Source: Acetohalobium arabaticum DSM 5501
Lineage (GTDB): Bacteria > Bacillota > Halanaerobiia > Halobacteroidales > Acetohalobiaceae
Length of the DNA: 64,000 nucleotides
Assembly: GCF_000144695.1 (NCBI RefSeq)
Contig: NC_014378.1
Span: 718,781-782,780 of the forward strand
Direction: 5' to 3'
Of this stretch, positions 7,634 to 64,000 are shown in pieces. Below the pieces are notes generated by a model, which had not been told where the DNA came from, ran no database searches, and was given only the letters and a program-made list of their open reading frames with translations. A program made the position numbers and the translations under genes. Within the stretch, counting starts at the first letter, position 1; the number at the start of each line of letters is the position of its first letter.

Positions 7634-7722
7634 TTTAGAAATTCACAGTATAATGCAGGAGCTTCAATCTTTATCTAGAAATTTATTTTTGGTATTATAA
7701 TTATTAAAGGAGGATTATCAAT

Positions 7723-7917
7723 ATGGAATGTAAAGTAGAAAAGAATAAAGAACACTGTAATTGTACCTACAGTCCCTGTCCTCGCAAAGGGAATTGTTGT
7801 GAATGTATTCAGTATCATCAGAAGAAGGATCAGTTGCCGGCCTGTTTCTTTCCAGATGAAGTAGAAAAGACTTATGATCGGTCTATCGAGCGCTTCATAG
7901 CATGCCATTCTGAGTAA
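7723..7917 (+). CDS. Small Cys-rich protein, DUF6485-like
   Basis: This 64-residue protein has seven cysteines in its first 35 residues (positions in [17 protein letters not shown] and [14 protein letters not shown]), an arrangement that suggests metal or iron-sulfur binding, plus one in PACFFP and one near the end. It matches the small DUF6485-type family found in anaerobes, whose function is unknown to me. A strong ribosome site (aaggagg, 7707-7713) precedes ATG 7723. It sits between hypE and thpR; whether it is co-transcribed with the hyp operon is not clear. Confidence 0.8.
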
Positions 7918-7931
7918 GAGGGGGAATAAAT

Positions 7932-8489
7932 TTGCGTTCATTTATAGCTGTTGATTTAGCCAATGAAGAAGTAAAGGATAAGCTAGTTGAGATTCAAAAA
8001 GAGATTAAAGCTTTACATTCTGGTAAGATTAAATTAGTAAAGCCTGAGAATCTTCATTTAACACTGAAGTTTTTAGGAGAGATAGAAGATACAGAGGTTG
8101 AAGAACTAGAAGAAATGTTGGAAGGATTTAAAGAATATTCTCAGCAGGAGATTAACGTTAGCGAGCTAGGAGTCTTTCCCCATTATGGATATATGAAAGT
8201 AATCTGGGCAGGCTTAAAAGAGAATGAGACTTTAAAGCAAATCAAGTCTGAATTAGAAGATAAGTCTGCTGAATTAGGTTTTGATAGAGATACGAAAGAC
8301 TTTCATCCCCATATTACTATCGGGAGAGTTAAAAATATTTGGGCCAAGGATAAGTTAGTGAATAAGCTAAAAGAATTTGTAGATCAGGATTTTGGAAAAC
8401 TAAAGTTGGATAAATTAAAATTGAAAAAAAGCACTTTAACTTCCGATGGGCCAGTATATGAAACTATAAGTGAAGTGGAATTAAATTAA
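7932..8489 (+). CDS. thpR: RNA 2',3'-cyclic phosphodiesterase ThpR (2'-5' RNA ligase family)
   Basis: The two catalytic HxT motifs of the 2H phosphoesterase family are present as HLTLKFLGE (near residue 43) and HPHITIGRVK (near residue 125). The N-terminus RSFIAVDL is also typical. The 185-residue length is normal. The start is TTG 7932, supported by gaggggg at 7919-7925; no ATG fits. The enzyme hydrolyses 2',3'-cyclic phosphate RNA ends. A good terminator follows directly. Confidence 0.93.
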   Translation: MRSFIAVDLANEEVKDKLVEIQKEIKALHSGKIKLVKPENLHLTLKFLGEIEDTEVEELEEMLEGFKEYSQQEINVSELGVFPHYGYMKVIWAGLKENETLKQIKSELEDKSAELGFDRDTKDFHPHITIGRVKNIWAKDKLVNKLKEFVDQDFGKLKLDKLKLKKSTLTSDGPVYETISEVELN

Positions 8490-8490
8490 A

Positions 8491-8520
8491 TCTCTGGATT
8501 TTTCCAGAGATTTAATTTTT
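8491..8520 (+). terminator. Intrinsic terminator after thpR
   Basis: An 8-bp perfect stem (tctctgga / tccagaga) with a 4-nt T loop lies at 8491-8510, followed by a T-rich tail. It closes the unit ending with thpR and isolates the ABC exporter genes. Confidence 0.85.
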
Positions 8521-8566
8521 AAAATTGGAATTTAAAATTAAGGAGATAAGGAATGGAGTGAGTTGA

Positions 8567-10336
8567 GTGCAGAAATCAACTTTAAAAAGAGGCTTACAGC
8601 TTTTAAGTTATGCTGGTAATTATGGTTGGGCAGTGGTGGGAGTAGTGATATCTGTCCTGATGTCTACTGTCTTTGTCTTACTGCCGCCCTGGTTGATTCG
8701 GTATGGTATTGATAATCTAATTATTGGAGAAAAACCGGAGTTTCTCTGGCTGTTGGGTTTAGCATTGGTAGGAATTACACTACTAAAAGGGGTAGTTGAT
8801 TTTGCTAAACGCTATGGTGCTGAATATATTGCCCAGAGAATTATTCATGATGTCCGTAGCCAGTTATATGATCATCTAAACCAGCTTTCATTTTCTTTTT
8901 ATGATTCTGCCCGCACTGGTGATATTATGTCGCGGATAACTGCTGATACTGATGCTTTAAGAAAATTTTTATCCAAAGTTAGCGTCTATGTATCAGGGAA
9001 TATTCTGACTATTATCGGGATTTTAGCAGTAATGATTTTTTGGAATCTCCAGTTAGCATTATTATATTTGATAATGGTACCTTTAATGGTTTATGGTATG
9101 TTTAAATATTCTACTCAGGTTAGGCCTATGTTTAGAAGAGTCAGATGTAAATTCTCTAATCTAACAGAGATTATTCAGGAGGATTTAAATGGAATAGAAA
9201 GTATTAAACTCTTTGGTCAGGAGAAGAAAGAAAAGGAAGACTTTATTCAGGAGAATCAAGAGTATGTTAATACCAGAATAGAAACTGCCCAGACTTCTGC
9301 TCTCTGGATGCCTTATGTGAACTTCTTAGTCGGTCTAGGCAGCTCTCTGGTAATTTGGTACGGTGGACGATTAGTAATCAGCGGAGAAATTTCCTTTGGA
9401 ATGTTGGTCGGATTTATCAGTTATATTGCGATGCTGCTTAGACCGGTTCGTCAGACGGGAATGATGATTAATTCTGCTACTCAGGCGGCTGCGGCAGCAG
9501 AGAGGATATTTGATATACTCCAGATGGAGCCTGAGATTCAAGAGGTCGATAATGCTTATGAGCTGCCACCAGTTGATGGTCGAGTAGAATATAGAGATGT
9601 CAGTTTTTCCTATCAACAGGATGAAGAGGTATTAACCGGAATAAATCTAACAGCAAAACCGGGTCAGCTGATAGCCATAGTAGGTCCTAGCGGTGCTGGA
9701 AAAAGTACACTGCTCCATCTTCTGCCCCGCTTTTATGATCCAGACCAGGGAGAGATATTGATTGATGGCCATAATATAAAAGAGCTTACTATCGGTAGTC
9801 TGCGGAGCCAGATTGGAATAGTTCTTCAGGACACCTTCTTATTTGCAGCTTCAATTAAGGATAATATCTCTTATGGACGTCCAGAGGCTTCGATGGAAGA
9901 GATTATTGAAGCAGCCAAGATAGCCCAGATCAACGACTATATCCAGTCGCTGCCGTTAGGTTATGAAACACCAGTAGGGGAGGAAGGAGTCAACCTTTCC
10001 GGGGGGCAGAAACAGAGGCTGGCTATGGCCCGGGTGCTTTTAACAGATCCCCAGTTACTTCTACTTGATGAACCGACTTCCAGTCTGGATGCCGAAACTG
10101 AAGAGCAGATGCAGCAGGCTTTATCTGAAGTTATCAAAGGTAGAACTACATTCATAATTGCCCATAGATTATGGACAGTTGAGAGAGCCGATCAGATTTT
10201 AGTAATCGACAATGGCAGGATTGTAGAGCAGGGTAGCCACGAAGAGTTGGTTTCGGCTGACAGGTTATATAGTCAACTCTACAGCCGTAGTTTAAGTGAT
10301 AGACTAATAAGTGAAACGGCAGGTGATAAGAGATGA
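8567..10336 (+). CDS. ABC exporter half-transporter 1 (ATP-binding and permease)
   Basis: This 589-residue half-transporter has an N-terminal six-helix type-1 exporter domain (about 1-320) and a C-terminal nucleotide-binding domain. The NBD shows Walker A GPSGAGKST (near residue 378), Q-loop LQDTFLF, signature LSGGQKQRLAMAR, Walker B LLLLDEPTSSLD with the catalytic Glu intact, and switch IAHRLWT. It starts at GTG 8567; the ATG of the next gene overlaps its stop by 4 nt, so the two halves are coupled and probably form a heterodimer. Likely roles are multidrug or lipid export; the substrate cannot be read from the sequence. Confidence 0.93.
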   Translation: MQKSTLKRGLQLLSYAGNYGWAVVGVVISVLMSTVFVLLPPWLIRYGIDNLIIGEKPEFLWLLGLALVGITLLKGVVDFAKRYGAEYIAQRIIHDVRSQLYDHLNQLSFSFYDSARTGDIMSRITADTDALRKFLSKVSVYVSGNILTIIGILAVMIFWNLQLALLYLIMVPLMVYGMFKYSTQVRPMFRRVRCKFSNLTEIIQEDLNGIESIKLFGQEKKEKEDFIQENQEYVNTRIETAQTSALWMPYVNFLVGLGSSLVIWYGGRLVISGEISFGMLVGFISYIAMLLRPVRQTGMMINSATQAAAAAERIFDILQMEPEIQEVDNAYELPPVDGRVEYRDVSFSYQQDEEVLTGINLTAKPGQLIAIVGPSGAGKSTLLHLLPRFYDPDQGEILIDGHNIKELTIGSLRSQIGIVLQDTFLFAASIKDNISYGRPEASMEEIIEAAKIAQINDYIQSLPLGYETPVGEEGVNLSGGQKQRLAMARVLLTDPQLLLLDEPTSSLDAETEEQMQQALSEVIKGRTTFIIAHRLWTVERADQILVIDNGRIVEQGSHEELVSADRLYSQLYSRSLSDRLISETAGDKR

Positions 10337-52852: not shown

Positions 52853-54073
52853 ATGACGCGGAAGAATAAGAAACTGCTTAAAATAGTAGGGATTATGGCT
52901 GCAGTAATTATAGCTGCTTATTTTTTACTTCCGATTAATGAGGCTATTAATTTAGGTCTTGATTTACAAGGAGGAACCCATGTAGTTTTGGAAGCAGAGC
53001 CTACAGAACAAAGTAAAGTAACTAATGATTCTATGCAGCGGGTAATTAGCGTTATTAATCGCCGAGTTAATCAGATGGGCCTTACAGAACCGGTAATTCA
53101 GCGAGAAGGCGACCGCAGGATTATTGTCGAACTGCCTGGGGTAGAGAACCCAAATCAGGCGATTGAGACTATTGGCAAGACAGCCCAATTAAAATTTAAA
53201 GATCCAAATGGAGAAGTGGTAATGACAGGTGGACATTTGGTTGATGCTCAAGCTACCTACGGGACTCAATTTAACCAACCAGTAATTCAGTTTGAATTAG
53301 ATAGTGTCGGTAAAGATAAGTTTGCTCAATTGACTAAAAAGCATGTAGGAGAGCGAATTGCTATTCATCTTGATGAAGAATTATTGACCAATCCTCAGGT
53401 TCAGGACCCAATCCCTGGAGGTGAAGGAATTATTACCGGGTATGAGACATTAGAAGAGGCTCAAGAGGATGCTTTATTATTACGGGCTGGTGCATTACCT
53501 ATGCCGGTTAAAGTAATTCAAAACAGAACTATTGGGCCTACTTTAGGAGCTCGGTCTATTGATCAGAGTATTACTGCTGGCTTAATTGGTCTTGCTTTAG
53601 TAGCTTTATTGATGATAATCTTGTATCGTTTATCCGGGGCAGTTGCGACAGTTGCGTTAGGAATCTATGGTGTGATTGTAATGGGAACTTTAGCTGGCTT
53701 GAATGCAACTTTGACGCTACCGGGAATTGCTGGTTTGATTCTGTCTATTGGTATGGCTGTAGATGCTAATATTATTATCTTCGAGCGGGTTAAACAGGAG
53801 TTAGGAGCAGGAAAGACTAAAAGGGCTGCTATTAAATCAGGATTTGAGCGTGCGTATAAGACAATCTTTGATGCTAATGTAACTACTTTAATTACAGCAG
53901 GTATTTTAGCTTATTTTGGTACTGGTACAATTAGAGGATTTGCGGTTACATTAAGTATAGGTATTTTAGCCAGTATGTTTACAGCAATTGTTGTAACTAG
54001 AACATTAGTTGATCTATTGTTAGATGCTAATTTATTAAAAGGTCAGAATGCTTTTGGCCGGGTAAGGAGGTAA
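52853..54073 (+). CDS. secD: Protein translocase subunit SecD
   Basis: The 406-residue RND-type protein has TM1 (IVGIMAAVIIAAYFLLP), LGLDLQGGTHVVLEAEP, a large extracytoplasmic domain and five C-terminal helices with the AGLILSIGMAVDANIIIFER motif. It uses the ion gradient to pull secreted proteins. SecF follows 6 nt later. Confidence 0.96.
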   Translation: MTRKNKKLLKIVGIMAAVIIAAYFLLPINEAINLGLDLQGGTHVVLEAEPTEQSKVTNDSMQRVISVINRRVNQMGLTEPVIQREGDRRIIVELPGVENPNQAIETIGKTAQLKFKDPNGEVVMTGGHLVDAQATYGTQFNQPVIQFELDSVGKDKFAQLTKKHVGERIAIHLDEELLTNPQVQDPIPGGEGIITGYETLEEAQEDALLLRAGALPMPVKVIQNRTIGPTLGARSIDQSITAGLIGLALVALLMIILYRLSGAVATVALGIYGVIVMGTLAGLNATLTLPGIAGLILSIGMAVDANIIIFERVKQELGAGKTKRAAIKSGFERAYKTIFDANVTTLITAGILAYFGTGTIRGFAVTLSIGILASMFTAIVVTRTLVDLLLDANLLKGQNAFGRVRR

Positions 54074-54079
54074 TTTAGA

Positions 54080-54952
54080 GTGGAAATTATCGGCAAACGA
54101 AAGATCTGGTTTATTATTTCAGCTTTAATCATCATTGTTGGATTAGGATCTCTAGTAATGCAGGGGCTTAATCTAGGGATTGATTTTACAGGCGGTACTT
54201 TGATGGAGTTTACCTTCGATAAGGAAGTAACTACCGGCCAAATTAGAGAAGTATTAGCCGGATTTGATCTGGATAAGAAGAGTGTAGTTCAAAATACAGG
54301 TGAAATGGGAATTTTAATTAGAACAGTAAATTTAAGACAGGATGAAATTACCGAGGTTCAATCAGCAATTAAAGATAAATATTCATCAGCGGAAATGTTA
54401 AGAACTGAGATGGTAGGTCCTGCTATTGGATCAGAATTAAAGAGTAAGGCCTACTGGGCATTATTAATAGCAGCAATAGCAATTGTTCTTTATATCAGTT
54501 ATAGGTTTGAATTCAAATTTGCTATTGCAGCTTTGATGGCTCTAGCCCATGATGTTTTAATTGTGATCGGAAGCTTTTCGTTGGTTGGTGAAGAGGTCGG
54601 TAGTCCATTTATTGCTGCTTTATTGACTGTGGTAGGTTATTCTATTAATGATACTATTGTTATCTTTGATAGAATTAGAGAAACAGTTAAATATCGTGAT
54701 AAAGAGAGTTTTGCTGATTTGAATAACAAGGCGGTATTAGATACCTTACCGCGTTCAATTAATACTTCAATGACAACTTTAGTTTCGATTTTAGCTATTT
54801 TAATCTTTGGAGGAGCTACTATTAAACCCTTTATGCTTGCTCTGTTAATTGGAATTTTATCGGGAACTTATTCTTCAATTTTTATAGCTAGCCCGGTATT
54901 AGTAGAAATCGATGCCTGGAAGAAGCGCAGGAATTCTAAACAGACAGCTTAA
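54080..54952 (+). CDS. secF: Protein translocase subunit SecF
   Basis: The 290-residue partner of SecD has TM1 (IWFIISALIIIVGLGSLVM), GIDFTGGTLMEF, and the helix motif YSINDTIVIFDRIRE. It starts at GTG 54080, 8 nt from aaggaggt. The pair is separate, not a fused SecDF. Confidence 0.96.
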   Translation: MEIIGKRKIWFIISALIIIVGLGSLVMQGLNLGIDFTGGTLMEFTFDKEVTTGQIREVLAGFDLDKKSVVQNTGEMGILIRTVNLRQDEITEVQSAIKDKYSSAEMLRTEMVGPAIGSELKSKAYWALLIAAIAIVLYISYRFEFKFAIAALMALAHDVLIVIGSFSLVGEEVGSPFIAALLTVVGYSINDTIVIFDRIRETVKYRDKESFADLNNKAVLDTLPRSINTSMTTLVSILAILIFGGATIKPFMLALLIGILSGTYSSIFIASPVLVEIDAWKKRRNSKQTA

Positions 54953-57982: not shown

Positions 57983-58039
57983 TCTAGAATTATGGGTATT
58001 GTTTGTTAGTAAGCAAATGTCAATCTGGAGGTTAAGAAT

Positions 58040-61000
58040 TTGATTTTGGATAGAGAATGGAAATTATTAAACCGGTCAACAGAAGAGGAGCCGAATTTAA
58101 GTGATTCCCTAAATATTTCATCAGTACTAGCAGAGATTCTATCCAGTAGAGGATTGAATAGCAAACAGAAGGTTGAGAACTTTTTAGAAGTGGAGTTAGA
58201 TGGACTCCATTCTCCTTTCTTGCTGGAGGGAATAGAGCAGGCAGTCGATAGAATCTCAACCGCAATGGAGTCTCAAGAGATTATCGGTATCTACGGCGAC
58301 TATGATGTTGATGGAATTACCAGTACCGGACTGCTTATTAATTACTTTCAACATTTAGGAGTTGAGCCTAAGTATCATATTCCCAATCGTCTAGAAGAAG
58401 GATATGGCCTCAATAAAGATGCTATTGAGAGCTTGGCTCAGAGCGGAGTTGAGCTTTTAATTACAGTTGACTGCGGTATTAGTGATTATCAAGAAGTAAA
58501 ATATGCTAATCAATTGGGGATAGATGTAATTATTACTGACCATCACGAAGTACCGGCCCGGATTCCACCCGCTGAAGCAGTCATAAATGCTAAACAGAGT
58601 AATTGTAATTATCCTTTCTCTCAGCTTTGTGGAGCAGGAGTTGCCTATAAATTAATTCTAGCGCTGGCTGATAAGGACCAACAGGTTAATCAGAAAGAAA
58701 TAAAAGAATATTATTTAGATTTATTAGCTATGGGAATAGTTGCTGATATTGTGCCGTTAGTAGATGAGAATAGGATTATGGTTAAATATGGTTTGGAGTT
58801 GCTGCAGAATCCAAATAATTTAGGTTTGAGTGCTTTAATTGAAGCGGTTGATTTAACAGAAACTGAGATCAATACCGGCCATATCGGCTACATTTTGGCA
58901 CCCAGGCTGAATGCTGCCGGCCGAATCGGTAATCCGGATCTGGCTTTAGAACTATTAATTACCGATGATCCTTCTCAGGCAGCCGATATTGCTGCTGAAT
59001 TGGAGGAAATTAATCACCGGCGGAGAGATATAGAGGCTGATATACGCCAAGAGGCAGAATTAATGGTTGAAGGAATGGACTTAGAGCAGACTAAAGCGCT
59101 GGTTTTAGCTTCTGAAAATTGGCATTCTGGAGTGGTAGGGATTGTAGCTTCTGATATTCAGGAGAAGTATTACCGTCCTACGATTATGATTGCCATTGAA
59201 GATGACGGCATCGGCAGGGGTTCAGCCCGAAGTATTAAAGGCTTCAATATTTATCAGGCAGTTAAGAATTCTGAAGATCTGCTCCCTAAATTTGGGGGTC
59301 ATGAACAGGCGGCTGGATTGAGTATTGCTAAAGAGGATATTGCTCAATTTAGGGATGAGATTAATCAGTATGCCGATGATAGACTGAGTGATAAGGATTT
59401 AACTCCGCGGTTAAAGCTGGATTGTGAAGTTGAACTGTCAGAGCTAAGCAAGGAATTAGTCCAGGAGATCGATTATTTAGCCCCCTTTGGTTTCGGCAAT
59501 CCGCGGCCTAAACTGGCTGTCAGGGAAGTTACGGTAGCTGATTTTGCGACAGTGGGCTCGAATGGTGAACATTTGAAGTTAGCTGTTACAGATGAAGCCG
59601 GTACTACTGTGGAATGTATTGGCTTTAATATGGCTGGTTTCAGACAAAAACTTATCTCCCAGCAGGAAGAGATAGATTTGGCCTGTACAGTAGAGATCAA
59701 TAACTGGCAGGGGAAGAGTGAATTACAGTTAAAGCTTAAAGATATTAACTTTCCTGAAGTTTCATTTATAGATCAATTATTTGCCAAATCAAAAGAGATT
59801 ATTGCTGATAATTATTACCGAGGTATTGGAGAGGAAGACCAGTTTTATACCAAAGTAGTAGGAGTTACCTTCGAAGGTCGTCAGGAGTTAATTAAAGAGT
59901 TAAAGAGAGGAGATAAGCTTAATTTAGTAAGAGAACCGGAGAATGAATATGATGAGTCTGCCATTCGAGTAGAGACTACTGATCAAGAGCAGATTGGCTA
60001 TCTTAAGTCCGGTCTAGCCAAACATTTGGCCCCTTATCTCGATGTCGGCTTTGAATATCAGGTGACTGTTTCAGAAGTAACCGGAGGAGTAGATAAAAAT
60101 TTAGGTGTTAATATCTTTATTGAGCAGGCAGGTTATAAAGAAGCAGAGTCAGCCGAGGAAGCAAAATCTTGTCGGGCCCAGCTGGAGACATTAAACCGCA
60201 GTGAGATTCTAAATGAAGTACGCCAGGCGTTGATTGGTGATTATGATTTTAGAAGTAAACAGAAAGAGGTCTTAACTACACTGGATAATGACCAGGATAC
60301 TTTAGCCATTTTTGGTACCGGACGTGGTAAATCGGCTATCTTCCAGAGTTATGCTGCTTTGCAGGCCTTGAATCAAGGCCGAATAACAGTTATACTATAT
60401 CCACTGCGGGCATTGGTCAATGATCAGTTTGACAGCCTGAAGAAGAATTTGGCACCATTAGGATTAGACATCTATAAGGCTAATGGTTCTTTAAGTGTTG
60501 GTGAACGAGAAAAGTTGATTACTGCTTTGAATCACGGGGAACTTGATATTGTTTTAACAACTCCTGAATTTATGGAGTATCATTTAGATAAGTTTCAGAA
60601 TTTAGCAGATGAAATCGGATTTTTAGTAGTTGATGAAAGCCATCATATCGGTATGGCTTCCAGTTCTTTCAGACCTACTTATAAACGTTTGGGCAAATTG
60701 AATTCTAAATTAGGTAATCCGCTGGTTTTAGCTGTTACAGCTACTGCTAATAATCAGGTAGCCAGAGAGATTATAGAAACTTTGAATATTGGAGAGATTA
60801 TTATTGATCCGCATGTACGTAGTAATCTAGAAATAATTGATAAGCGGGGCTGCAGAGATAAGGAAGCATATCTTTATGAGGTGGCAAGCAGTGGTGAAAA
60901 GAGTATTATCTATGTTAACAGCCGGGAGCAGAGTATAGAGCTAGCCAGCAATTTAAGACAGCGACTGCCTGGTCTTGCCGAGGAGATTGGCTTTTATAAT

Positions 61001-61672
61001 GCTGGACTGACAAATAAGGAACGAAACCGGATTGAAAGTATGTTCTGGAGCGGGAAATTAAAGATAATAGTTTCTACCAGTGCTTTTGGAGAAGGAATTG
61101 ATATTCCTGATATTAGAAATATAGTACTGTATCACCTTAATTTTAATTTAACTGAATTCAACCAACAGAGTGGACGCGTCGGCAGGGATGGTAAACAGGC
61201 CAAGATTCATCTACTTTTTGGCCAGCAGGATGTCCGGATTAATGAGTTTATTCTGGATAGTATGGCACCAGAAAGAGAAGTCTTGGTTCAATTATACTGT
61301 GTATTAAAACAGGAAGAGGATACAGACCAACAAATAAAGTTAACCAATCAGCAGTTAGCCCAAAAAGTCAGCAGTCGGCTGCAGGGTAAAGTCAGAGAGA
61401 ATACAGTTTCTGCTGGTTTAGGAGTTTTAGAAGATTTAAATATATTAACCAGGATTCAGGAGGCAGGAAATAGAATAATTCAATTAAGAAGGATTCCTGA
61501 TTCTCAACTGGACTTAAATGATTCACTGCGGTATAGGGAGGGATTGGAGGATAAAGAAGCCTTTAATGAATTCAAAGACTTTATTCTGAATGCAGAAGCT
61601 GAAGAATTATTATCTTTAGTTAATCAACCTATCTATCCAACTAAATTAGTAAAGACTAAGGGGGAGAATTAA
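58040..61672 (+). CDS. recJ: RecJ exonuclease fused to a HIRAN domain and a RecQ-like helicase
   Basis: One uninterrupted 1210-residue frame holds three modules. RecJ (about 1-580): GDYDVDGITST (residues 86-96), ITDHHEVPARIPP (DHH 167-169), LAPRLNAAGRIGNPD, the DHHA1 GGHEQAAGLSI (about 418) and an OB region. HIRAN (about 600-690): VVGVTFEGRQELIKELKRGD, EPENEYDESAIRV, QIGYLK. RecQ-like helicase (about 725-1070): Walker A FGTGRGKSAIF (about 756), PLRALVNDQFDSL, DESHH (about 864), FRPTYKRLGKL, AVTATANNQVAREII, AFGEGIDIPDIRN, QQSGRVGRDGK. RecJ alone is usually about 560-580. All catalytic motifs look intact. It starts at TTG 58040, 7 nt from ggaggtt. It precedes apt, as recJ often does. Confidence 0.95.
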   Translation: MILDREWKLLNRSTEEEPNLSDSLNISSVLAEILSSRGLNSKQKVENFLEVELDGLHSPFLLEGIEQAVDRISTAMESQEIIGIYGDYDVDGITSTGLLINYFQHLGVEPKYHIPNRLEEGYGLNKDAIESLAQSGVELLITVDCGISDYQEVKYANQLGIDVIITDHHEVPARIPPAEAVINAKQSNCNYPFSQLCGAGVAYKLILALADKDQQVNQKEIKEYYLDLLAMGIVADIVPLVDENRIMVKYGLELLQNPNNLGLSALIEAVDLTETEINTGHIGYILAPRLNAAGRIGNPDLALELLITDDPSQAADIAAELEEINHRRRDIEADIRQEAELMVEGMDLEQTKALVLASENWHSGVVGIVASDIQEKYYRPTIMIAIEDDGIGRGSARSIKGFNIYQAVKNSEDLLPKFGGHEQAAGLSIAKEDIAQFRDEINQYADDRLSDKDLTPRLKLDCEVELSELSKELVQEIDYLAPFGFGNPRPKLAVREVTVADFATVGSNGEHLKLAVTDEAGTTVECIGFNMAGFRQKLISQQEEIDLACTVEINNWQGKSELQLKLKDINFPEVSFIDQLFAKSKEIIADNYYRGIGEEDQFYTKVVGVTFEGRQELIKELKRGDKLNLVREPENEYDESAIRVETTDQEQIGYLKSGLAKHLAPYLDVGFEYQVTVSEVTGGVDKNLGVNIFIEQAGYKEAESAEEAKSCRAQLETLNRSEILNEVRQALIGDYDFRSKQKEVLTTLDNDQDTLAIFGTGRGKSAIFQSYAALQALNQGRITVILYPLRALVNDQFDSLKKNLAPLGLDIYKANGSLSVGEREKLITALNHGELDIVLTTPEFMEYHLDKFQNLADEIGFLVVDESHHIGMASSSFRPTYKRLGKLNSKLGNPLVLAVTATANNQVAREIIETLNIGEIIIDPHVRSNLEIIDKRGCRDKEAYLYEVASSGEKSIIYVNSREQSIELASNLRQRLPGLAEEIGFYNAGLTNKERNRIESMFWSGKLKIIVSTSAFGEGIDIPDIRNIVLYHLNFNLTEFNQQSGRVGRDGKQAKIHLLFGQQDVRINEFILDSMAPEREVLVQLYCVLKQEEDTDQQIKLTNQQLAQKVSSRLQGKVRENTVSAGLGVLEDLNILTRIQEAGNRIIQLRRIPDSQLDLNDSLRYREGLEDKEAFNEFKDFILNAEAEELLSLVNQPIYPTKLVKTKGEN

Positions 61673-61676
61673 CAGA

Positions 61677-62189
61677 ATGGATTTAACAGATAAGATTAGA
61701 GTTATTGAGGATTTTCCTGAGGAAGGAATTAAATTTAAAGACATTACTACTTTATTAAAGGATATTGAAGCTTATCAGGCTGCTATTGATCAATTTGTTG
61801 ACCGGTATCAGGACTGTGATATAGATGTAGTGGTAGGAATTGAATCCAGAGGCTTCTTAGTAGGTGCTCCGCTTGCCTTAGAATTGGGTAAAAGTTTTGT
61901 GCCGGCTAGAAAGGAAGGTAAACTTCCTGCTGAAGTGGTTCGGGCTGAATATGATCTTGAGTACGGAACTAGTATTTTGGAACTTCATTGTGACGCTATT
62001 GACCCAGGAGATAAAGTCTTAATTGTAGATGATCTGTTGGCTACAGGGGGAACAGTTGAAGCAGCAGTTAGCTTAGTAGAAGAATTAGGAGGAGAAGTAG
62101 TTGAATTGGCCTTTTTAATAGAACTGTCATTCCTAGAAGGACGTGATGAATTAACAGACCATGATATATATTCAGTAATTATTGAATAA
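61677..62189 (+). CDS. apt: Adenine phosphoribosyltransferase
   Basis: The 170-residue enzyme makes AMP from adenine and PRPP. It has FPEEGIKFKDITTLL, VVGIESRGFLVGAPLALELG, FVPARKEGKLP and the PRPP loop VLIVDDLLATGGTVEAAV. It starts 4 nt after the recJ-fusion stop. Confidence 0.97.
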   Translation: MDLTDKIRVIEDFPEEGIKFKDITTLLKDIEAYQAAIDQFVDRYQDCDIDVVVGIESRGFLVGAPLALELGKSFVPARKEGKLPAEVVRAEYDLEYGTSILELHCDAIDPGDKVLIVDDLLATGGTVEAAVSLVEELGGEVVELAFLIELSFLEGRDELTDHDIYSVIIE

Positions 62190-62219: not shown

Positions 62220-64000
62220 ATGATAAGAGTAAAAGAGGAGACAGAAGGAGCAGAAAATATGGCTTTAGAAGATTTAATCGAGAAGATAGAATCTTATATT
62301 AATGACCCTGACCTTGAATTGATTACTAAAGCCTATAAATTTGCTAAAGATGCTCATGAAGGCCAGTACCGTGTTTCAGGCGAACCTTTTGTAGAGCATC
62401 CTTTGGGTGTAGCTTTGATTATGGCAGAGCTTGAACTGGATATAATCTCTATTACTGGTGCTTTACTGCATGATGTAGTTGAGGATACAGAAGTCTCTTT
62501 TGCTCAACTTAGGAATGAGTTTGGAGAAGAGATTACTCTGTTGGTTAATGGAGTAACTAAGTTAAGTAAGATTGCCTTTAAATCTCGGGAAGAACAGCAG
62601 GCTGAAAGTCTGCGAAAGATGTTTCTGGCTATGTCCAAGGATATTAGAGTAATTTTAATTAAGTTATCAGATAGGCTCCATAATATGAGAACTCTTGAAT
62701 ATTTATCCCAACAAAAGCAGGAGCGGATTGCTCGAGAAACTATAGAAATTTATGCTCCTTTAGCCCATAGGCTAGGAATTTCAACCTTGAAGTGGGAACT
62801 AGAGGATTTAAGTTTTAAGCATTTAGAACCAAATAAGTATTATGAATTGTCCAATAAAGTAAGTAAGAATCGTGATGAACGGGAAGAGTATATTGATAGA
62901 TGTATTTCTAAGGTAGAAAAGAGATTAAATTTAGAAGGAATTGACGCCCATATCTATGGACGTCCCAAGCATCTATACAGTATCTATCAGAAGATGAAGC
63001 GGAAGAATAAAGAGCTATCTGAAATCTATGATTTAGTTGCTCTGCGGGTTATTGTAAATGATGTTCAAGAATGTTATCAGGTATTGGGAAATATCCATGA
63101 AATCTGGAATCCGATACCGGGAAGAATTAAAGATTACATAGCTATGCCTAAGTCGAATATGTATCAATCACTACATACTACAGTTATCGGTCCTAAAGGA
63201 GAACCATTAGAGATTCAGATTAGAACCTGGGATATGCATCGGACTGCTGAATATGGAGTTGCTGCTCACTGGCGCTATAAAGAAGGAAAGAAGAATAATG
63301 AAAAAGCAGCTAAAAAGATTTCCTGGTTAAGACAGCTTCTAGAGTGGCAGAAAGATCTTCAGGATGCTACAGAATTTATGGAGACTTTAAAGGTGGATCT
63401 GTTTGAGGATGAAGTCTTTGTCTTTACTCCTCAAGGAGATGTGATTTCTCTACCTAGGGATGCAACTCCAGTGGATTTTGCTTATAATATTCATACTGAA
63501 GTAGGCCACAGCTGTGTGGGGGCTAAAGTTAATGACAAATTAGTTCCGCTGGAATATAAACTCGAGAATGGCGATATAGTTGAGATTCTTACTTCAAAGA
63601 ACAGCGGTCCTAGCCGGGATTGGCTGAACTTTATTAAGACTTCCCGGGCCAAAAGTAAGATTAAGCGCTGGTTCAAACAGCAGCGGCGTGATGAGGCAAT
63701 TGATAAGGGAAAGGATAGCTTAGAAGAGAAATTAAATAAGTATAATATTCAATTCAAAGAAGAAGAAAAGAAAGCAAAATTAAAGAATATAGCACAGAAG
63801 CTGGGTCGTTCCAGCATTAAGGATCTATATGCTGCCATCGGTTATAATAAAGTTAAGACTTCTCAGGTGATTAGTAAGCTGCGTCCTGAAGATGAGAAGA
63901 AGGATAAGGCTCCAGAAGAGATATTAAAGAAACTTAAAGAAAAAACAAAGACTAAACGCAAAAGTAAGGCAGATAAAGGCATTAAAGTTAAGGGCATGGA
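62220..64000 (+). CDS. rel: Bifunctional (p)ppGpp synthetase/hydrolase Rel (3' end outside window)
   Basis: The frame is open to the window edge, about 593 residues. The HD hydrolase shows FVEHPLGVALIMAELELD, LLHDVVEDTEVSF, LIKLSDRLHNMRTL. The synthetase shows RPKHLYSIYQKMKRKN, DLVALRVIV, YIAMPKSNMYQSLHTTVIG, EIQIRTWDMHRTAEYG. The TGS domain shows VFVFTPQGDVISLP and DFAYNIHTEVGH. The ACT end is missing. ATG 62220 (aaggag at 62205) and ATG 62259 (gaaggag at 62244; MALEDLIEKI) are both plausible starts. It completes the recJ-apt-rel order and links amino-acid starvation to growth control. Confidence 0.96.
   Translation, partial: MIRVKEETEGAENMALEDLIEKIESYINDPDLELITKAYKFAKDAHEGQYRVSGEPFVEHPLGVALIMAELELDIISITGALLHDVVEDTEVSFAQLRNEFGEEITLLVNGVTKLSKIAFKSREEQQAESLRKMFLAMSKDIRVILIKLSDRLHNMRTLEYLSQQKQERIARETIEIYAPLAHRLGISTLKWELEDLSFKHLEPNKYYELSNKVSKNRDEREEYIDRCISKVEKRLNLEGIDAHIYGRPKHLYSIYQKMKRKNKELSEIYDLVALRVIVNDVQECYQVLGNIHEIWNPIPGRIKDYIAMPKSNMYQSLHTTVIGPKGEPLEIQIRTWDMHRTAEYGVAAHWRYKEGKKNNEKAAKKISWLRQLLEWQKDLQDATEFMETLKVDLFEDEVFVFTPQGDVISLPRDATPVDFAYNIHTEVGHSCVGAKVNDKLVPLEYKLENGDIVEILTSKNSGPSRDWLNFIKTSRAKSKIKRWFKQQRRDEAIDKGKDSLEEKLNKYNIQFKEEEKKAKLKNIAQKLGRSSIKDLYAAIGYNKVKTSQVISKLRPEDEKKDKAPEEILKKLKEKTKTKRKSKADKGIKVKGM

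Follow-up and report, generated by a model that had tools for sequence, protein, structure and literature searches.

RecJ degrades the 5' strands of single-stranded DNA. Helicase-nuclease fusions are already known in the form of WRN and DinG, as is the partnership between RecQ and RecJ. In AddAB and RecBCD, helicase and nuclease are coupled for end resection, like the role proposed below for a RecJ fusion protein of Acetohalobium arabaticum, but these enzymes have SF1 motors and PD-(D/E)XK nucleases and consist of two or three subunits. The Werner syndrome protein (WRN) carries a nuclease and a RecQ helicase in one chain; unlike the fusion, it is eukaryotic, has a 3'-5' DEDD exonuclease together with RQC and HRDC domains, and lacks HIRAN. 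RecQ and RecJ of the RecF pathway in E. coli and Deinococcus have the same two activities as the fusion with compatible polarity, but they are separate proteins without HIRAN, and RecQ bears Zn-binding, RQC and HRDC domains. E. coli RecJ is described as needing RecQ (3'-5') for the resection of blunt or 3'-tailed ends (Morimatsu and Kowalczykowski, as cited in PMC4846377), and a direct interaction between DrRecJ and DrRecQ was not found in Deinococcus (PMC4846377).

DinG with a DEDD exonuclease, reported from S. aureus (PMC12345164) and B. subtilis (PMC12525004), is also an exonuclease-SF2 helicase fusion of Bacillota. However, it joins a 3'-5' exonuclease of another fold to an XPD-like 5'-3' helicase, which have opposite polarities. 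HLTF and Rad5 likewise have HIRAN beside an SF2 motor, but this motor is a Swi2/Snf2 translocase accompanied by a RING domain, without a nuclease. S. aureus RecJ (PDB 8y30) and other PF10141-type RecJ of Bacillota have a RecJ core followed by a C-terminal domain that aligns with part of the fusion, its RecA2 lobe and tail, whereas RecA1, HIRAN and the helicase motifs are missing from them. In the open-access literature, we found no paper with HIRAN and RecJ together as whole words and no relevant paper on PF10141; neither a RecJ-HIRAN-RecQ-like chain nor an interpretation of the RecJ tail of Bacillota as a decayed motor appeared in the open-access literature searched.

The fusion gene lies in the window, the whole stretch of 64,000 nucleotides that was analysed, from a genome that is a single contig of 2,469,596 bases. 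The features of the locus are given below with their window coordinates.

52853..54952, plus strand: secD-secF, conserved upstream neighbours
58027..58042, plus strand: Shine-Dalgarno GGAGGT (58027-58032) and TTG start codon (58040-58042), from the sequence, spacing 7 nt
58040..61672, plus strand: recJ-HIRAN-helicase gene, 1210 codons, 1210 aa, no internal stops, orthologues known
58283..58738, plus strand: DHH domain, residues 82-233 (PF01368, 3e-30), DYDVDG, VDCG and DHH motifs intact by alignment
59090..59374, plus strand: DHHA1 domain, residues 351-445 (PF02272, 1.6e-18), GGH motif intact
59417..59743, plus strand: RecJ OB domain (RecJ_OB), residues 460-568 (PF17768, 3.8e-30)
59843..60088, plus strand: HIRAN domain, residues 602-683 (PF08797, 2.8e-16)
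60215..60814, plus strand: helicase RecA1 lobe, residues 726-925 (PF00270, DEAD, 740-907, 1.5e-23)
60314..60334, plus strand: motif I (Walker A) GTGRGKS, residues 759-765, by alignment
60626..60646, plus strand: motif II (Walker B) VVDESHH, residues 863-869, by alignment
60815..61264, plus strand: helicase RecA2 lobe, residues 926-1075 (PF00271, Helicase_C, 943-1051, 5.5e-24), homologous to the PF10141-type C-terminal domain of other Bacillota RecJ
61163..61189, plus strand: motif VI QQSGRVGRD, residues 1042-1050, by alignment
61265..61639, plus strand: C-terminal tail domain, residues 1076-1200, kept longest in reduced RecJ, with HMM matches in nearly all reduced RecJ
61677..62189, plus strand: apt, 4 nt downstream of the fusion gene, conserved neighbour
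62220..63998, plus strand: rel, conserved neighbour, extending past the window end

The original prediction had described a fusion in a single frame of 1210 residues with every catalytic motif intact, and the open reading frame, Pfam and motif alignments confirmed this description. Pfam placed the domains in the order DHH, DHHA1, RecJ_OB, HIRAN, DEAD and Helicase_C, with every call above its gathering cut-off. The supposition that the protein is probably the cell's RecJ, based on its normal recJ-apt-rel position, also held: the gene is the sole RecJ of the genome and occupies the usual secDF...recJ-apt-rel locus. The remaining DHH matches in the genome (ORFs of 331 aa and 902 aa) were not RecJ by a RecJ query. 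The RecJ half scored 599.9 bits with NCBIfam recJ TIGR00644 (cut-off 396.9). The full-length AlphaFold model (model residue n is protein residue n+10) reached a pLDDT of 86 and a pTM of 0.58, with uncertain inter-domain geometry, and matched RecJ structures over residues 11-574, with Z about 46-56 for the best bacterial entries. With its DHH/DHHA1 motifs and OB domain, the RecJ half is a predicted 5'-3' single-strand exonuclease.

The HIRAN domain is the only one in the genome. Its score of 59.6 bits against a gathering cut-off of 24.7 for PF08797, and a match to the HIRAN of HLTF at 1.2e-4, agree with the HLTF-type domain proposed at the outset. R631, N635 and D638 are invariant in a 29-row alignment of relatives, and Y637 sits, by our own alignment, at what we take to be the position of HLTF Y93. 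The HIRAN of HLTF takes up a single-stranded dinucleotide in a cavity that Y72 and Y93 border (PMC4666394). Pocket-like residues are conserved in the domain of the fusion, a putative binder of 3' single-stranded DNA ends.

In the helicase half, motifs I (GTGRGKS), Ia, Ib, II (DESH), III (TAT), IV, V and VI (QQSGRVGRD) are all intact by alignment, and the two RecA lobes with motifs I-VI form a RecQ-like SF2 fold. The DEAD and Helicase_C matches above gathering, together with these motifs, bore out the RecQ-like SF2 assignment and answered the question of whether the downstream half had helicase homology at all. Residues about 717-1200 of the model matched RECQL5, RecQ and WRN with Z 23-25, and the helicase half matched WRN at 7e-37. 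RecQ proper was nevertheless rejected as its identity, as both RecQ cut-offs were missed (202.3 vs 640.2 bits for TIGR01389; 194.7 vs 219.8 bits for TIGR00614) and the accessory Zn-binding, RQC and HRDC domains, sought in the protein with Pfam, were absent, whereas the genome's own RecQ has all three. Neither a UvrD-type SF1 motor nor a PD-(D/E)XK nuclease, the marks of AddA (TIGR02785), was found in the fusion protein with Pfam. The tail domain alone had no clear relative in the PDB by sequence, the best being a MarR-like winged helix (E 0.11).

A search for separate genes found no second recJ and a canonical recQ elsewhere in the genome (L049), encoding 711 aa with Zn-binding, RQC and HRDC domains. 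An AddAB-like pair of the same genome lies on the minus strand (L091:4605-7712 and 7703-10324). It comprises a 1035-aa UvrD-type helicase with weak PD-(D/E)XK matches, which scores far below the Gram-positive AddA model, and an adjacent 873-aa PD-(D/E)XK protein. Because the fusion is the only RecJ, and a separate RecQ and an AddAB-like pair exist, it is a housekeeping RecJ with an added motor and no substitute for recQ or addAB; its interpretation as a replacement for either was rejected.

How could such a protein work? The coupled resection suggested in the original prediction is still an inference. HIRAN would grip the 3'-terminated strand, on which the RecQ-like motor would run 3'-5' under ATP, peeling the 5'-terminated strand away. 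The displaced 5' end could be passed in cis to the tethered RecJ nuclease, which would degrade the strand 5'-3' and leave a 3' single-stranded tail for RecA. We consider it somewhat more probable than not that the protein is a single-chain, ATP-driven helicase-nuclease for the resection of DNA ends and gaps and that many Bacillota RecJ tails are its fossil. Its role may be narrower than general resection, because canonical RecQ and the AddAB-like pair have both been retained in the genome.

The main rival concerns the substrate, namely action at blocked forks or gaps. HIRAN and helicase might remodel or unwind the nascent strand at forks as in HLTF, with RecJ trimming the nascent 5' end, rather than act at double-strand breaks. 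HLTF HIRAN serves fork remodelling (PMC4666394), E. coli RecQ and RecJ process blocked forks according to a reference cited in PMC4846377, and the AddAB-like and RecQ proteins are also available for breaks. On the other hand, the motor is RecQ-like and not Swi2/Snf2, and the sequence does not separate fork from break substrates. We regard the fork role as possible, with perhaps a minor share of the probability, and retain resection of ends and gaps as the preferred reading.

A first scan of genome contigs with one query sequence gave no matches. The survey for the same architecture nevertheless found it in many Bacillota genomes, and a recent private fusion was rejected; the fusion is an old architecture spread through Bacillota and not unique to A. 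arabaticum. Full-length counterparts from close relatives, which belong to other species and genera, are 85, 68, 67 and 53% identical. When species genomes were scanned with the HIRAN-helicase part, 39 loci emerged; in most of them RecJ shares the frame, secD-secF lies upstream and (apt-)rel downstream. Carriers occur in Halanaerobiia and include Orenia, Frackibacter, Thermincola, Peptococcaceae, Anaerospora and other Negativicutes, as well as MAGs labelled Slackia and Actinomycetota. Not counting identical copies, at least 39 fusion proteins have intact motifs; they come from several classes, share the secDF-recJ-(apt)-rel locus and comprise 36 that pass a strict motif pattern plus L073, L101 and L104, intact by alignment. 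An even draw across the phylum placed the intact full-length fusion in 11 of 119 genomes. Exactly one RecJ match at E 1e-25 occurred in each of the 27 fusion-locus genomes having RecJ; the helicase is intact or apparently so in 25 of these and dead in two. In many fusion-bearing Clostridia (L053-L057, L062-L066 and others), apt is absent between recJ and rel.

Across 36 intact proteins, evolutionary distances of the RecJ core agree with those of the HIRAN-helicase part (Mantel r 0.88, 0 of 2000 permutations); therefore, both halves travelled together. In relatives, the helicase has also decayed in graded steps, which the original prediction did not mention: the motifs died, HIRAN and RecA1 were lost, and then RecA2 and the tail alone were left. 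Five genomes of the same order (G002, G005, G006, G009, G010) encode proteins of 1100-1200 aa without helicase motifs; G014 and G017, from another order, have lost HIRAN besides the motifs; and in G008 only RecA2 and the tail remain. Most class members retain about 250 aa after the OB domain, and an otherwise plain RecJ of 663 aa (L121) still ends in the tail domain (1.5e-20). Because it was repeatedly lost, the helicase is dispensable, which counts against the resection reading.

Two MAGs, an Armatimonadetes (L085:475-3993) and a Bacillota (L089:3282-6785), encode RecJ-HIRAN proteins with an intact-looking HIRAN and a dead helicase, a loss order opposite to that in G014 and G017. A second, shorter RecJ of about 760-780 aa occurs in six of six decayed genomes of the order (G002, G005, G006, G008, G009, G010) and is absent from the intact genomes G000, G001, G003, G004, G007, G011 and G012; the association with a dead helicase was not significant, with only two independent contrasts. 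G014, in which the helicase of the RecJ fusion itself is dead, also encodes a standalone intact HIRAN-helicase of 648 aa that retains the RecJ-side linker (L038:6343-8289). It neighbours ParM-like, SSB and DndC-like genes (by eye) in an apparently mobile element and is perhaps an escaped copy. In two MAGs without a RecJ match at 1e-25, standalone HIRAN-helicases occupy the place of recJ immediately downstream of secD-secF (L077:4818-6866 and L078:4703-6563). They are basal to the fused forms in a RecQ-rooted helicase tree and might represent an ancestor or a product of RecJ loss.

Intact and decayed forms are interleaved on the RecJ-core tree, where supported branches force at least five changes (L104 is labelled decayed on this tree and is intact by alignment). 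Loss is the likelier direction, because the decayed forms lost many independent motifs, although the tree alone is no proof. The opposite history, in which a reduced RecJ with a RecA2-like domain and tail was ancestral and recombination or transfer later brought in or spread the active helicase, draws on the inability of change counts on the tree to separate gain from loss, on the two changes that suffice inside the class and on the standalone HIRAN-helicases L038, L077 and L078. We find it improbable, since core and helicase share a single history, the order's intact and decayed members fall in one helicase clade (97 SH-aLRT), intact forms are found in several classes, selection on decayed copies is relaxed, and the regain of eight motifs is implausible.

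The remnant of the motor can be followed into RecJ proteins of the PF10141 (ssDNA-exonuc_C) type. Nine of 12 C-termini of the class matched PF10141 at E up to 0.1 (best 1.5e-11); the A. arabaticum genome itself had no PF10141 match above cut-off, the homology being to its reduced relatives. By hhalign, the reduced C-terminal profile matched the fused helicase of intact proteins (3.4e-27) and, taken singly, its RecA2 lobe (2.3e-18) and its tail (5.8e-19); HIRAN, RecA1 and RecJ decoys gave nothing. Against canonical RecQ, the profile match of the reduced C-terminus was not significant (E 0.11), and the link between them goes via the fused intermediates and the fold. Independently, the predicted structure of the motif-less C-terminus of L017 (pLDDT 87) has a RecQ-type fold: it superimposes on RecQ RecA2 lobes (Z up to 16.2, 162 residues, 2.6 A), and RecQ-family proteins fill the top rows of this comparison. 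Its top Foldseek match was S. aureus RecJ, 8y30, and the C-terminal part of that protein also aligns with the RecA2 and tail end of the full-length fusion model. That alignment covers 652 residues, running to 752 in the chain and to 1181 in the model; its overall rmsd is high, as the two differ in domain placement.

The PF10141-type tail of many Bacillota RecJ thus looks like the remnant of a decayed motor. For S. aureus this rests on the fold and a weak profile match (0.0013), and for B. subtilis on PF10141 membership. In many lineages, the motor would have decayed while a RecA2 and tail remnant, overlapping PF10141, stayed on RecJ. We think it somewhat more probable than the contrary that Bacillota RecJ proteins descend from a common ancestor in which RecJ, HIRAN and an ATP-driven helicase were joined, that PF10141, also in S. 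aureus and B. subtilis, is the fossil of its RecQ-like motor and that some bacteria, A. arabaticum among them, still run the complete machine today.

Purifying selection separates the intact from the decayed forms. In the intact pairs tested, the helicase lobes have a dN/dS of about 0.04-0.12, similar to or below that of the RecJ core in most of them, whereas in two dead-motif pairs it reaches 0.24-0.41 for helicase/HIRAN vs 0.08-0.13 for the RecJ core. This pattern is that of a functional helicase in intact fusions and of relaxed constraint in decayed ones. A merely structural or regulatory part in A. arabaticum, binding SSB or DNA without a working motor, could appeal to the many relatives that retain the domain with dead motifs; with all motifs intact here and a helicase dN/dS of about 0.05-0.07 vs the sister species, we judge it very unlikely. 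An assembly or frameshift artefact fusing two genes has a negligible chance and was rejected; nothing spoke in its favour, as a stop or frameshift near residue 590 was looked for and not found, and the identical architecture is open in the same frame across dozens of independent genomes.

A natural one-chain version of the textbook RecQ-RecJ partnership makes physical coupling of the two directly testable with one purified protein and its point mutants. For the Bacillota, the fusion would give a common RecJ domain an origin and point to the part of RecJ in S. aureus or B. subtilis that is predicted to be a former motor lobe. The repeated decay of the helicase is a natural series in which to study when an attached motor becomes dispensable to a cell.
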